From a virus: 28,309 nt of DNA. Of the stretch, positions 16,560 through 20,275 are shown piece by piece. Where the stretch lies: the IMG/VR virus record IMGVR_UViG_3300030109_004998, positions 1 to 28,309 of that record. One strand, given 5' to 3'. The translations under genes and the position numbers were made by a program. A model generated the notes under the pieces. It was not told the origin of the DNA, ran no database searches, and worked only from the letters and a program-made list of their open reading frames with translations. Every line of letters begins with the position of its first letter. Position 1 is the first letter of the stretch.

Positions 16560-17051
16560 ATGGCAACAGTAACACCACAAGAATTATTTTACACACCGTA
16601 TGAACCGAAATTAAAAAATCGGTTTATCATGGAGTTAGGAGATACAGGTATACCTGCTTTTACAATCAAGACGATGCAAAGACCACAAATAACTTTTGAT
16701 GAAGTTGTTTTGGAACACATGAACATCACAAAGTATGTAAAAGGTAAAGGTAGATGGCAGACAATGCAAATTACTTTGTATGACCCGATTGTACCCTCTG
16801 CCGCCTCTTCTGTAATAGATTGGGTAAGACTACATCATGAAAGTTCTACTGGTCGTGATGGGTATCAAGATACATATAAGAAAAATGTTACTTTTCAAGT
16901 ATTAGGACCTGTAGGTGATATTATTGAGAAATGGACACTACATGGTACTTACATCTCAGATGCTGCTTTTGGTGATTTAGATTTTACTGATTCTAATCCT
17001 GTTGAAATTACACTAACCTTAAGATACGATTACGCTATACTTGAATTTTAA
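16560..17051 (+). CDS. gp19: Tail tube protein (gp19-like)
   Basis: A 163-residue protein, same size as T4 gp19 (163). It shows the tube pattern: PKLKNRFIMELGDTGIPAF near the start, TMQRPQITFDEVVLEHMN, KGRWQTMQITLYDPI, a WVRLHHESSTGRDGYQDTYK helix, and ITLTLRYDYAILEF at the end. Subunits form stacked hexameric rings inside the sheath through which DNA passes. It directly follows the sheath gene, as in T4. A short inverted repeat lies just after its stop. Confidence 0.95.
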   Translation: MATVTPQELFYTPYEPKLKNRFIMELGDTGIPAFTIKTMQRPQITFDEVVLEHMNITKYVKGKGRWQTMQITLYDPIVPSAASSVIDWVRLHHESSTGRDGYQDTYKKNVTFQVLGPVGDIIEKWTLHGTYISDAAFGDLDFTDSNPVEITLTLRYDYAILEF

Positions 17052-17085: not shown

Positions 17086-17835
17086 ATGTCAGAACATAAG
17101 TTCCCTACGGAAGTTATAGATTTACCATCTGGTGGAAAATTATATTCAAAAGATTCACCACTTTCTGAAGGTAAATTAGAATTAAAATACATGACCACAA
17201 AAGAAGAAGACATTCTTATGTCTGAAAATCTTATCACACAAGGTGTGGTTATTGATAAATTATTAGATAGTTTGATAGTTACACAAGGTGTCAAACAAGA
17301 ACAGTTGGTTTTAGGTGATAAGAATGCTGTATTAGTTGCTTCTCGTATTCTTGCCTACGGTCCACATTACACTTGTGAGGTAGCCAACCCAAATAATTTA
17401 GAACAAAAAATTGAACATACATTCGACCTTACTGAGTGTCCTTTTAAAGAAGCAGTCGATGGTGTTGATTATAGTGACAACTCTTTTGATTTTGAAACAC
17501 CAGTTGGAAAAAATAAAATAAAATTCAAACTTCTTACAGGTGTTGAAGAAAAATTAATTGAAAAAGATTTAGAACAATCCAAAAAAATTGGATATAATTC
17601 AGAGATAACAACAAGACTTCGTTATACGATTATTGAAGTAGATGGTGATAATAAACAAGAAACCATTTCTGTGTTTTCACAGAATATGTTAGCTCGTGAT
17701 TCTATGGCATTGAGAAATTACATTCAAGAGATTTCTCCCGATATTGACTTGACATCGGAAATCGAAATAGGAGGTAATACTGTGAGCGTGTCAATTCCGC
17801 TTACAGTCGAGTTTTTTTGGCCTAAGTCCGTCTAA
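17086..17835 (+). CDS. gp26: gp26-like baseplate hub / tail assembly protein
   Basis: A 249-residue protein whose start (FPTEVIDLPSGGKLYSKDSP, then LSEGKLELKYMTTKEEDIL and VIDKLLDSLI) matches the T4 gp26 baseplate protein family, in which the LPSxG and MTxKEE motifs are conserved. The middle has ILAYGPHYTCEVANP and TECPF, two cysteines in a beta region. T4 gp26 helps assemble the baseplate hub. Position after the tube and before the tape measure is also the position of tail assembly chaperones in many phages. The last codons (VEFFWPKSV) cross a run of seven T, and the +1 frame continues open for 75 codons, suggesting a frameshifted longer form. AAGGAG precedes the ATG. Confidence 0.78.
   Translation: MSEHKFPTEVIDLPSGGKLYSKDSPLSEGKLELKYMTTKEEDILMSENLITQGVVIDKLLDSLIVTQGVKQEQLVLGDKNAVLVASRILAYGPHYTCEVANPNNLEQKIEHTFDLTECPFKEAVDGVDYSDNSFDFETPVGKNKIKFKLLTGVEEKLIEKDLEQSKKIGYNSEITTRLRYTIIEVDGDNKQETISVFSQNMLARDSMALRNYIQEISPDIDLTSEIEIGGNTVSVSIPLTVEFFWPKSV
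17812..17818 (+). promoter_or_regulatory. Putative programmed frameshift slippery run (seven T)
   Basis: Near the 3' end of the gp26-like gene the codons are GAG TTT TTT TGG. A Phe tRNA could re-pair on TTT after moving +1 or -2, and both moves lead into the same frame, which stays open to 18040. The zero frame stops 15 bases later at 17833-17835. The -1 frame is not the one used by the extension. Confidence 0.6.
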
Positions 17836-18040
17836 TAAATTAGACATACATCAATCTATATTTTACTTTATTTATGGAACACCTGGCTTCACATTTAGTG
17901 ATGTCTACAATATGCCTGTTCATTTGAAAAACTTTTATTTACGAGAGTTTATGGATTTTAAAAAGAAAGAAAAAGAAAAGATTGATGCCGCACAACCAAA
18001 ACAACAGTCAACAATCCCTCGTAGATTTTCTCCTAAATAA
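17819..18040 (+). CDS. Frameshifted C-terminal extension of gp26-like protein
   Basis: After the T-run the +1 frame reads G-L-S-P-S-N-K, then LDIHQSIFYFIYGTPGFTF, SDVYNMPVHLKNFYLREF and a lysine-rich tail ending IPRRFSPK. This region is otherwise a 250-base gap. The frame is open from 17786 but has no ATG, GTG or TTG before an ATG at 17912, which lacks a ribosome site and would give only 42 residues. The text looks like real protein: VYNMPVxLxxFYLR is a pattern I associate with small proteins encoded just after gp26 in T4-like phages. Production as a G/GT-type fusion by frameshifting is the best explanation. A sequencing indel in the T-run is the main alternative. Confidence 0.6.
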   Translation, partial: GLSPSNKLDIHQSIFYFIYGTPGFTFSDVYNMPVHLKNFYLREFMDFKKKEKEKIDAAQPKQQSTIPRRFSPK

Positions 18041-18083: not shown

Positions 18084-18305
18084 ATGTCATATATGAGTGG
18101 TAAAAATATATTGAAAGAAGGAATAATTGATAAGATTATACGAAAGTTGATTACTCAACCTATCTTAAAAAGAAGTTCTAAATTTTCAAATGCGGTAGAT
18201 GATTTAAACGATGCTATTTCTGAGTTTGAAAAGGCAGCTACTGCTGAAATTAGAAAAAACAATCCCAAAGCAAAACCAGTTAAAATTAAAAGATATAGAG
18301 TATAA
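18084..18305 (+). CDS. Small basic protein with N-terminal LKE motif
   Basis: A 73-residue basic protein with GGAG nine bases before the ATG. It starts MSYMSGKNILKEGIIDKI, giving an L-x-E site (Leu10-Lys-Glu12) followed by Gly, like the leaders at 5115 and 5341. The remainder is helical with VDDLNDAISEFEKAATAEI and a basic tail (KPVKIKRYRV). It lies between the gp26-like gene and the tape measure, so it might be a tail chaperone rather than a head protein; the leader suggests otherwise. Function is unknown. It ends two bases before the GTG of the tape measure gene. Confidence 0.5.
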   Translation: MSYMSGKNILKEGIIDKIIRKLITQPILKRSSKFSNAVDDLNDAISEFEKAATAEIRKNNPKAKPVKIKRYRV

Positions 18306-18307
18306 TA

Positions 18308-20275
18308 GTGGCAACACCAAAAGAAACATTAGAAGCTCAAAAGTTAGCAAATGAAGCCATAAAAGAGGGAAATGATTTAAGTCGTGCTTTTGGACGAATA
18401 TTAGATTCTCAAATAGGTAAACAAAAACAATTGTCAGTTGCTGCAAAAAATACTGCCAGTATAATACAACGAATGGCAGAAGATAAAAAATCAGAATTAG
18501 ACACCGAATCTAAACTTAAAAAAGTCAAAGAGCAGATGAGTGCGAATGCTCAAGAAATAGTGAGATATAATAAAATAGGTCATACTGCTATCGCGGATTC
18601 TCTAAAGACAAACATAAAAGGTATGGCTGTTGAAAAGGGGATGTTACAAATACAAAAAATGAAAGAAGACCTAACTGCCAAAATTAAAGAAAATTTAACA
18701 ATTGGTGGTATACTAGCAGCTGCTGTTAGTATTGCGACAAAGTTTGGTAGTGCGATAGACACGATTGGTCAACAATTCGGTAGTTTATCGGTGATGGGTA
18801 AAGAGTTTCAAACAGATTTATTAAGGTCATCAGTAGAAGCAACAAAACTTGGTGGTAGTATACAAGATGTAGCTTCTATAACAAATACATTGGCATCCGA
18901 TTTCGGAATGAGTGTTGATGAGGCTGCAAAGTTATCGTCTAAAGTTTTTGATACGAGTAAAGCTTTAGGATTATCATCTGATGAAAGTGCAAATTTATTC
19001 GGTTCTTTAACACAAGTTGCCAATCTATCAGCCGAACAAGCTGAGTCACTTGCTGAGGGGGCTTTTCAATTAGCTAGACAAAGAGGAGTTGCTCCATCTG
19101 CTGTCCTTAGAGACATAGCTGGTTCTGCTGAAGAAATTGCTTTGTTTACAAAGGGTGGTGGTGACAACATAGCAGAGGCAGCCGTTCAAGCAAGAAGTTT
19201 GGGGATGTCATTATCACAGACTGCTAAAATTGCTGAGGGATTATTAGATTTTGAATCTTCTATAACCAAAGAGGTCGAAGCTTCTGTATTAATAGGAAAA
19301 CAACTTAATTTTCAGAGGGCAAGAGAAGCTGCTCTTAGTGGTGATATAGCTGGTGCTATGTCAGAAGTTGTAAAACAAGTTGGTTCTGAACAAGACTTCT
19401 TAAATTTAAATCTTATACAAAGAAAAGCTCTTGCTGATTCAATTGGTGTTTCGGTTGGAGAAATGGCAAAATTAGTTGGACAAAGTGATAAATTAACCTT
19501 AAGTGGAGCTATGGCATCTGGTAACTTTGAAGATTTATTAGGGGAAGAGGGTATATCAAACATATCTAAATTATCAGGACAATTTGCTGCTTTGGGTGCT
19601 AATTTAGTTAACTCTGTAGGTCCTGTGTTATCTGTAGTAGCGAGTGGATTGAATGCTATGTTATCACCTATAGCGTCAGTTTTACAAGGACTAGAAAAAA
19701 TGAATGCTTTAGCTCCAGTGTTAGCGGGAACTTTGACTACATTAGGCACAGCATATCTTATGGTAAAGGCAAATGCCTTGTTGGCTGCTAGTGCTCAAGC
19801 AAAAGCTAATTTGGCTGCTGGTGGTGGTATTGTGAAATCGATTGGACTGGCTATAGCAGAATACTTTAAAGGTGCTGCTTTAGGTTCAGGTGCAACTTTA
19901 GGTTTTGGAACTATTGCATTAACTGCTATAGCCGCTGGTGCAGTAGCAACAATGTTAGCCTCGTTAGCAAAAGCAAAAAGCGTAAATGACTTCACATCTG
20001 GACCTGGTGGTATCACTACAATGATGGGACCTGCTGGTATATTTAGTTTGAATCCAAGAGACTCTGTGTTGGCAACAACTAATCCAATACCTGTTCGAAG
20101 AGTCAACGAAGTGGGGCAAAATCTTTCTTTTGGAAATGCTGGAGAATTTGCCTATAATGGTGGTGGTGGTGGTGGTGGAGAATATGTGCTCCGAGCTGAA
20201 GGAAATGACTTAGTAGCAAGAATTGCTAAAGGTGCAAATTTTGGTGGTGGTAGTCCTACTGAGGGTATGGCATAA
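18308..20275 (+). CDS. Tail tape measure protein (gp29-like)
   Basis: A 655-residue protein with GTG start. Length is near T4 gp29 (590), which sets tail length. Residues 1-130 are helical and polar with coiled-coil character. Residues 135-160 and 430-560 are alanine/glycine-rich hydrophobic helices (GGILAAAVSIATKFGSAIDT, ALGANLVNSVGPVLSVVASG, IALTAIAAGAVATMLASLA), typical of tape measures that insert into the host membrane on ejection. The centre (residues 170-400) is a long run of A/S/L-rich helices. Near the end, GGITTMMGPAGIFSLNPRDS precedes a seven-glycine run; the former is common in tape measure tails of this type. Position after the gp26-like gene agrees. It overlaps the next gene as TAATG. 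Confidence 0.82.
   Translation: MATPKETLEAQKLANEAIKEGNDLSRAFGRILDSQIGKQKQLSVAAKNTASIIQRMAEDKKSELDTESKLKKVKEQMSANAQEIVRYNKIGHTAIADSLKTNIKGMAVEKGMLQIQKMKEDLTAKIKENLTIGGILAAAVSIATKFGSAIDTIGQQFGSLSVMGKEFQTDLLRSSVEATKLGGSIQDVASITNTLASDFGMSVDEAAKLSSKVFDTSKALGLSSDESANLFGSLTQVANLSAEQAESLAEGAFQLARQRGVAPSAVLRDIAGSAEEIALFTKGGGDNIAEAAVQARSLGMSLSQTAKIAEGLLDFESSITKEVEASVLIGKQLNFQRAREAALSGDIAGAMSEVVKQVGSEQDFLNLNLIQRKALADSIGVSVGEMAKLVGQSDKLTLSGAMASGNFEDLLGEEGISNISKLSGQFAALGANLVNSVGPVLSVVASGLNAMLSPIASVLQGLEKMNALAPVLAGTLTTLGTAYLMVKANALLAASAQAKANLAAGGGIVKSIGLAIAEYFKGAALGSGATLGFGTIALTAIAAGAVATMLASLAKAKSVNDFTSGPGGITTMMGPAGIFSLNPRDSVLATTNPIPVRRVNEVGQNLSFGNAGEFAYNGGGGGGGEYVLRAEGNDLVARIAKGANFGGGSPTEGMA
20158..20178 (+). 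repeat. Trinucleotide repeat (TGG, seven copies) in tape measure gene
   Basis: Seven perfect TGG units, read in frame as GGT codons, encode seven consecutive glycines near the tape measure C-terminus. Such tracts change copy number by slippage in steps of one residue without breaking the frame. Confidence 0.85.

Follow-up and report, generated by a model that had tools for sequence, protein, structure and literature searches.

Does the gene for a T4 gp26-like protein in a marine tailed phage end at its own stop codon, or is part of its product extended into the gap that follows it? The question arises at positions 17086 to 18040 of the window, the whole 28,309-nucleotide stretch analyzed here (positions 1 to 28,309 of IMG/VR record IMGVR_UViG_3300030109_004998). 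The source virus encodes a contractile sheath and a protein matching the Gp23 capsid protein (E value, 2e-76), and on these two proteins it is assigned to the T4 superfamily. Our analysis suggests that this single gene very probably yields two forms of the tail assembly chaperone of a contractile-tailed phage of this superfamily, by a +1 slip at the second of two TTT codons. The features of the locus are as follows.

16560 to 17051, plus strand: tail tube gene, upstream (PHROG 4542 tail tube; E value, 2e-29).
17086 to 17835, plus strand: short form (TAC-N), a T4 gp26-like protein of 249 amino acids in frame 0 (PF12322 E value, 6e-6; PHROG 150 in homologues; AlphaFold pLDDT, 90).
17812 to 17817, plus strand: shift site, codons TTT TTT, with the proposed +1 slip on the second codon (17815 to 17817); invariant in intact close relatives.
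17818 to 17820, plus strand: A-site codon TGG (Trp) at the slip, TGG in 137 of 143 genes, with a putative role in pausing.
17819 to 18040, plus strand: C-terminal extension (TAC-C) in the +1 frame, from GGC to the stop (third-position substitutions; three-helix model, pLDDT 84).
17821 to 17835, plus strand: dual-coded stretch from the slip site to the frame-0 stop (synonymous constraint ranks of codons 246, 248, and 249).
18308 to 20275, plus strand: probable tape measure gene, the proposed client of the chaperone (weak PHROG 28 match, E value 0.019; annotation in relatives).

The frame-0 open reading frame (249 codons) ends in GTC GAG TTT TTT TGG CCT AAG TCC GTC TAA and contains seven consecutive Ts at 17812 to 17818. 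An earlier, sequence-only reading of this DNA had held that the gap after the gp26-like gene is open in the +1 frame and that this extension has no usable start codon or ribosome site of its own. Both points were confirmed for the window: the +1 frame is free of stop codons from 17786 to the stop at 18038 to 18040 (84 codons, or 75 counted from the T run), it contains no ATG, GTG, or TTG upstream of 17912, and its first start, the ATG at 17912, lies inside the conserved domain of the extension. The chance of an open stretch of 252 nucleotides was estimated at 0.36% from dinucleotide shuffles. Conceptual translation of frame 0 and the extension joined at the slip gives a long form (TAC-NC) of 317 amino acids. 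The interval that separates the extension from the tape measure gene in the window also holds a 73-amino-acid open reading frame with a ribosome-site-like sequence (18084 to 18305), for which no confident family match was found; an open reading frame of 71 codons occupies the equivalent position in phage Mel-JY01.

The arrangement is retained far beyond the window. In a close set of 80 IMG/VR relatives (76 to 100% identity), every intact junction has the seven Ts and the +1 extension, with the site TTTTTTTGGCC; the exceptions are an upstream nonsense codon in L035, a broken extension in L061, and a few junctions cut by contig ends. The premature frame-0 stop of this contig (L035/L188) and the broken extension of L061 are probably sequencing errors or defective copies. 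A profile scan extended the relatives to 44 to 62% identity, and among 145 distinct genes, reaching down to approximately 25 to 45% identity, the extension is in the +1 frame in all intact cases except that of L088, where it is in the −1 frame. Phages at approximately 25 to 45% identity with a +1 extension are immuto (Flavobacterium), Mel-JY01 (Microcystis), LR756508, GXN1 (Streptococcus), SP-15 (Bacillus), and LIS04 (Listeria). The immuto site reads TTTCTTTGG. The extension is likewise +1 in MAG contigs labeled Flavobacteriales, Winogradskyella, and Saprospiraceae, and these labels suggest Bacteroidota hosts for part of the +1 clade. In total, comparison of homologous loci for the T run and the frame relation found both the site and the +1 extension retained in approximately 150 distinct relatives (IMG/VR records, cultured phages, and MAG contigs; 100% down to approximately 25 to 45% identity), a count of related loci rather than of independent events. 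Substitutions in the extension fall at the first, second, and third positions of its +1-frame codons in proportions of 29, 22, and 49%, a pattern which indicates that the extension is a selected reading frame.

A scan of the genome contigs with the SP-15 protein returned no match, and six larger contigs, themselves incomplete, yielded no T4-style second gene copy. One further locus (L290; CP070664.1, candidate division WOR-3) has phage-like sheath, tube, chaperone, and tape-measure open reading frames near a DNA polymerase-like open reading frame and runs of N, and it may be a prophage or a chimeric assembly.

Alignment of 143 genes gives the consensus site TTT-[TTT/CTT]-TGG-CC. TTT occupies the first position in 141 of these genes; at the second codon, 133 of the 134 Phe cases use TTT and 8 of the 9 Leu cases use CTT. 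Elsewhere in the same genes, TTT accounts for 79% of Phe codons and CTT for 24% of Leu codons, and TTT makes up 31 to 93% of the other conserved Phe columns. The sole TTC at the second codon belongs to LR756511 (L088), whose extension is −1. A shift codon of the release factor 2 type (YTT followed by T) is present in most junctions, and the exceptions use TTT-C or a slip on the first TTT. The presence of CUU_U in eight relatives implies that the Leu tRNA would slip as well as the Phe tRNA, so that the re-pairing of Phe tRNA on the seven-T run, as first proposed for this site, agrees with the conserved TTT TTT but is too narrow for the family. Synonymous constraint in frame 0 rises sharply right after the site, where codons 248, 249, and 246 take second, third, and fourth place among 246, and such a jump is expected if +1 reading starts there. 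In several relatives (e.g., L219), the +1 frame is closed by a stop just a few bases 5′ of the TTT codons, and the shift therefore cannot happen earlier in those relatives.

Stimulatory elements of known types were also sought. Minimum free energy z-scores for 28 sequences gave no sign of a conserved RNA fold 3′ of the site (mean z, −0.86, for pseudoknot-free structures). No SD sequence occurs at the position seen in release factor 2, and the codon preceding the site varies across the aligned genes. The GGAGG at 17770 to 17774 was considered as an SD stimulator and rejected, as it lies approximately 40 bases 5′ of the slip codon, beyond the usual distance. A stop codon is absent from the A site, which holds TGG instead in 137 of the 143 genes, and our guess is that a slow UGG there provides a stimulating pause.

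The direction of the shift, which the sequence-only reading had given as either +1 or −2, was addressed by assessing P-site tRNA re-pairing after each slip at 153 junctions. Re-pairing after a +1 slip is possible in all 153. A −2 ribosomal slip, of the kind used by phage Mu (PMC5009743), would produce the same fusion with one extra residue at the junction, and TTT TTT T allows such re-pairing by a single tRNA in 144 of the 153; however, it fails at nine junctions (the TTTCTTTGG, TTCTTTTGG, and L083 sites) where the +1 slip works, and we regard it as improbable, leaving +1 as the favored direction. Slippage of RNA polymerase on the T run would instead place an altered number of Ts in part of the mRNA, with no ribosomal shift. 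A longest run of exactly seven in 139 of the 153 junctions would suit this explanation, but 11 junctions keep the frame relation with no homopolymer longer than 4 in the overlap, which makes polymerase slippage a very unlikely source of the long form.

The extension could also be an independent gene, translated from a start of its own, and a separate small open reading frame is indeed annotated in the records of Mel-JY01 and the cyanophages. An SD-like sequence precedes a +1-frame start in 23 of 136 relatives, mostly a GTG 29 bases 5′ of the slip codon, and the window is not among them. Conversely, the +1 frame of 73 of the 136 lacks every kind of start codon ahead of slip+40, the first start of the window falls as late as the ATG at 17912, synonymous constraint sets in at the slip site, and both parts lie within one open reading frame in T4 gp51 and in bacterial loci. 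A start with a ribosome site is thus not common to the relatives, and we give the separate gene as little credence as polymerase slippage. Approximately 20 near relatives (L002 to L019 and others, the window not included) have the +1-frame GTG behind a GGAGG, at the 29-base distance given above, as a possible secondary start inside the gene, and in the SD-bearing subgroup (23 of 136), initiation at such a start could supplement the shift. Homopolymer runs are error-prone in sequencing, but a sequencing or assembly indel (six or eight Ts in place of seven) has practically no chance of being the explanation, since the same T run recurs in independent assemblies and the +1 relation is kept in approximately 150 distinct genes from such assemblies and from cultured phages, including variants without the run, among them the TTTCTTTGG and TTCTTTTGG sites, which still require a frameshift. 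The interpretation as a programmed frameshift is therefore largely upheld, with +1 slippage of the ribosome as the preferred mechanism.

The short form scores above the curated Pfam cutoff for T4_baseplate PF12322 (26.5 bits against 24.5; E value, 6e-6), a family of which T4 gp26 and T4 gp51 are both members. Among 43 aligned short-form homologues, 37 match PF12322 at an E value of 0.01 (best, 1.8e-16) and 41 match PHROG 150 ("baseplate hub"); when the window proteins were searched alone, neither the short form nor the extension had a PHROGs match. The two parts were modeled separately rather than as the joined 317-amino-acid protein. For the short form, the AlphaFold model (pLDDT, 90) exceeds Z 5 against just two PDB entries, the HK97 tail assembly chaperone (5.6) and YqbN (5.5), with the next at 4.0; values of 5 to 6 are in the weak range, both matches are confined to residues 1 to 93, and Foldseek alone gave E values above 1. 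These structural matches are suggestive of a chaperone fold for the short form. The model of the extension consists of three helices (pLDDT, 84), and its comparison with the PDB returned nothing but helical matches of low Z. PHROG 634 ("baseplate hub assembly catalyst") is matched by 6 of 44 extension homologues (best E value, 0.0097) and DUF6760 weakly by 10 of the 44 (best E value, 0.0013), with the window's own extension under every threshold.

At the sequence level, the locus encodes two forms with a common N terminus, the longer one reached by a frameshift near the 3′ end, and the gene lies between the tail tube gene (16560 to 17051) and the probable tape measure gene (18308 to 20275); the gene in the latter position is annotated as tape measure in phages immuto and LIS04. 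The short and long products are most likely a tail assembly chaperone pair (TAC-N/TAC-NC) of the lambda gpG/gpGT type, encoded upstream of the tape measure gene. Like the window, lambda gpG/gpGT has its gene between tail tube and tape measure and produces a short form and a minor, frameshifted long form, but the shift is −1 in lambda and +1 in the window phage. Under the proposed mechanism, most ribosomes would terminate at 17833 to 17835 and release TAC-N (249 amino acids). In a minority, the peptidyl-tRNA on the second TTT of TTT TTT TGG would slip by +1 onto the overlapping TTT with UGG in the A site, and these ribosomes would resume at GGC to produce TAC-NC (317 amino acids) with its predicted three-helix C-terminal domain. 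If lambda is a guide, short forms would coat the tape measure protein and a few long forms would recruit tail tube subunits.

In sister phages, the corresponding extension is in the −1 frame. The gp26 gene of cyanophages, of Vibrio, Aeromonas, Citrobacter, and Stenotrophomonas phages, and of Agrobacterium phage Atu_ph07 mostly ends in T TTT TTC with a stop close after, and it is the −1 frame that encodes a helical extension (shift site U_UUU_UUC); ATT, GTT, or CTT stands ahead of TTC in Cygsa01, Kevin, and D495. Comparisons by hhalign relate the −1 extensions to the C terminus of T4 gp51 (E value, 1e-11) and the +1 extensions to the −1 extensions (E value, 1.7e-4), with nothing from reversed controls; compared directly with gp51, the +1 extension gives a weak match (E values, 0.02 to 0.09). 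The 595-kb uncultured phage LR756511 (L088), close to the +1 clade, has a TTT TTC TTC site, a −1 extension, and a longer frame-0 tail, and judged by its sequence it is a natural change of shift direction. The "gp51 baseplate hub assembly catalyst" genes (54 to 57 codons) of cyanophages S-PM2, S-CAM9, and S-SCSM1 are out-of-frame gp26 extensions, −1 in S-PM2 and S-CAM9 and +1 in S-SCSM1, the last possibly owing to a one-base difference in the record. Sullivan et al. (2010) described cyanophage gp51 as approximately 20% of the T4 length and aligning to its C terminus, with no explanation offered (PMC3037559); this short gene would correspond to the extension.

Two genomes from the phylum of the Winogradskyella MAG (L296:859-1623 and L297:859-1623) encode PF12322 (E value, 2.5e-9) fused in frame with DUF6760 (E value, 1.5e-6), downstream of a tube gene and, in L296, together with a sheath C terminus. 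A joined protein of this kind thus exists elsewhere as a single open reading frame with no frameshift, whereas the window extension would be joined by a +1 shift. The fusion suggests that DUF6760 may be the C-terminal half of the tail chaperone in contractile injection systems; among the papers searched, none dealt with DUF6760. We consider it more probable than not that one orthologous junction is decoded in at least four ways, namely, +1 at YUU_U, −1 at U_UUU_UUC (cyanophages, others, and LR756511), duplication (gp26/gp51), and fusion in frame, as with PF12322-DUF6760 in the contractile-tail loci of bacteria, with small changes in poly-T flipping the direction.

Vladimirov, Gautam, and Davidson (2022, Virology 566:9-15) reportedly identified the tail assembly chaperones of T4-like phages. 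As presented in papers that cite this study, some T4-like phages carry a short gene beside a longer, fused one (PMC10885494), and the chaperone genes of T4-like phages use poly-T sequences as −1 signals (PMC12846349). Set against these citing accounts, the window is alike in its gp26/gp51 Pfam family, its poly-T site near the 3′ end, and its short and long forms, and it differs in a +1 site at YUU_U, in contrast to −1 signals and split short and long genes. With T4-like chaperone frameshifting already published in 2022, the window site represents a known strategy in a +1 version; a gpG/gpGT-like arrangement ahead of the tape measure gene is supported, but it is probably membership of a class rather than the new application that had been claimed, as far as the citing papers convey. 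Relative to the 2022 work as cited there, three things appear to be new: a +1 site of the YUU_U type throughout the clade, a switch of direction between homologous sites, and the DUF6760 link. In T4 itself, the end of gp26 resembles the short form and the C-terminal part of gp51 the extension, but these are two separate full-length genes on opposite strands with no frameshift. The shift codons resemble those of release factor 2 (prfB), where CUU_U is highly conserved and UUU_U is used in a small minority of species with the same +1 re-pairing (PMC5009743); unlike prfB, the window has UGG rather than UGA in the A site, no conserved SD stimulator, and an unrelated product. Unusual shift directions in tail or capsid genes are also known from phage Mu (−2), Listeria phage PSA (+1), and HSTV-2 (+1), in other genes or at other sites (CCC_UGA in PSA), and the closest earlier case of a +1 shift in a tail chaperone is that of HSTV-2 (PMC5009743).

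A 2016 review of recoding described G-T frameshifting as a conserved feature of long-tailed phages "except T4" (PMC5009743). The +1 sites described here and the −1 sites of the sister clades fit a single explanation. If the junction is indeed decoded in four ways, cyanophage "gp51" and DUF6760 would each represent the C-terminal half of a chaperone of the window type. The finding corrects annotation, as the extension was missed or called a separate gene in the records examined. The proposed shift runs in the less usual, forward direction and is kept across a large and divergent group of phages, and the +1 and −1 sites together offer a natural series for the study of how frameshift direction changes at one site.
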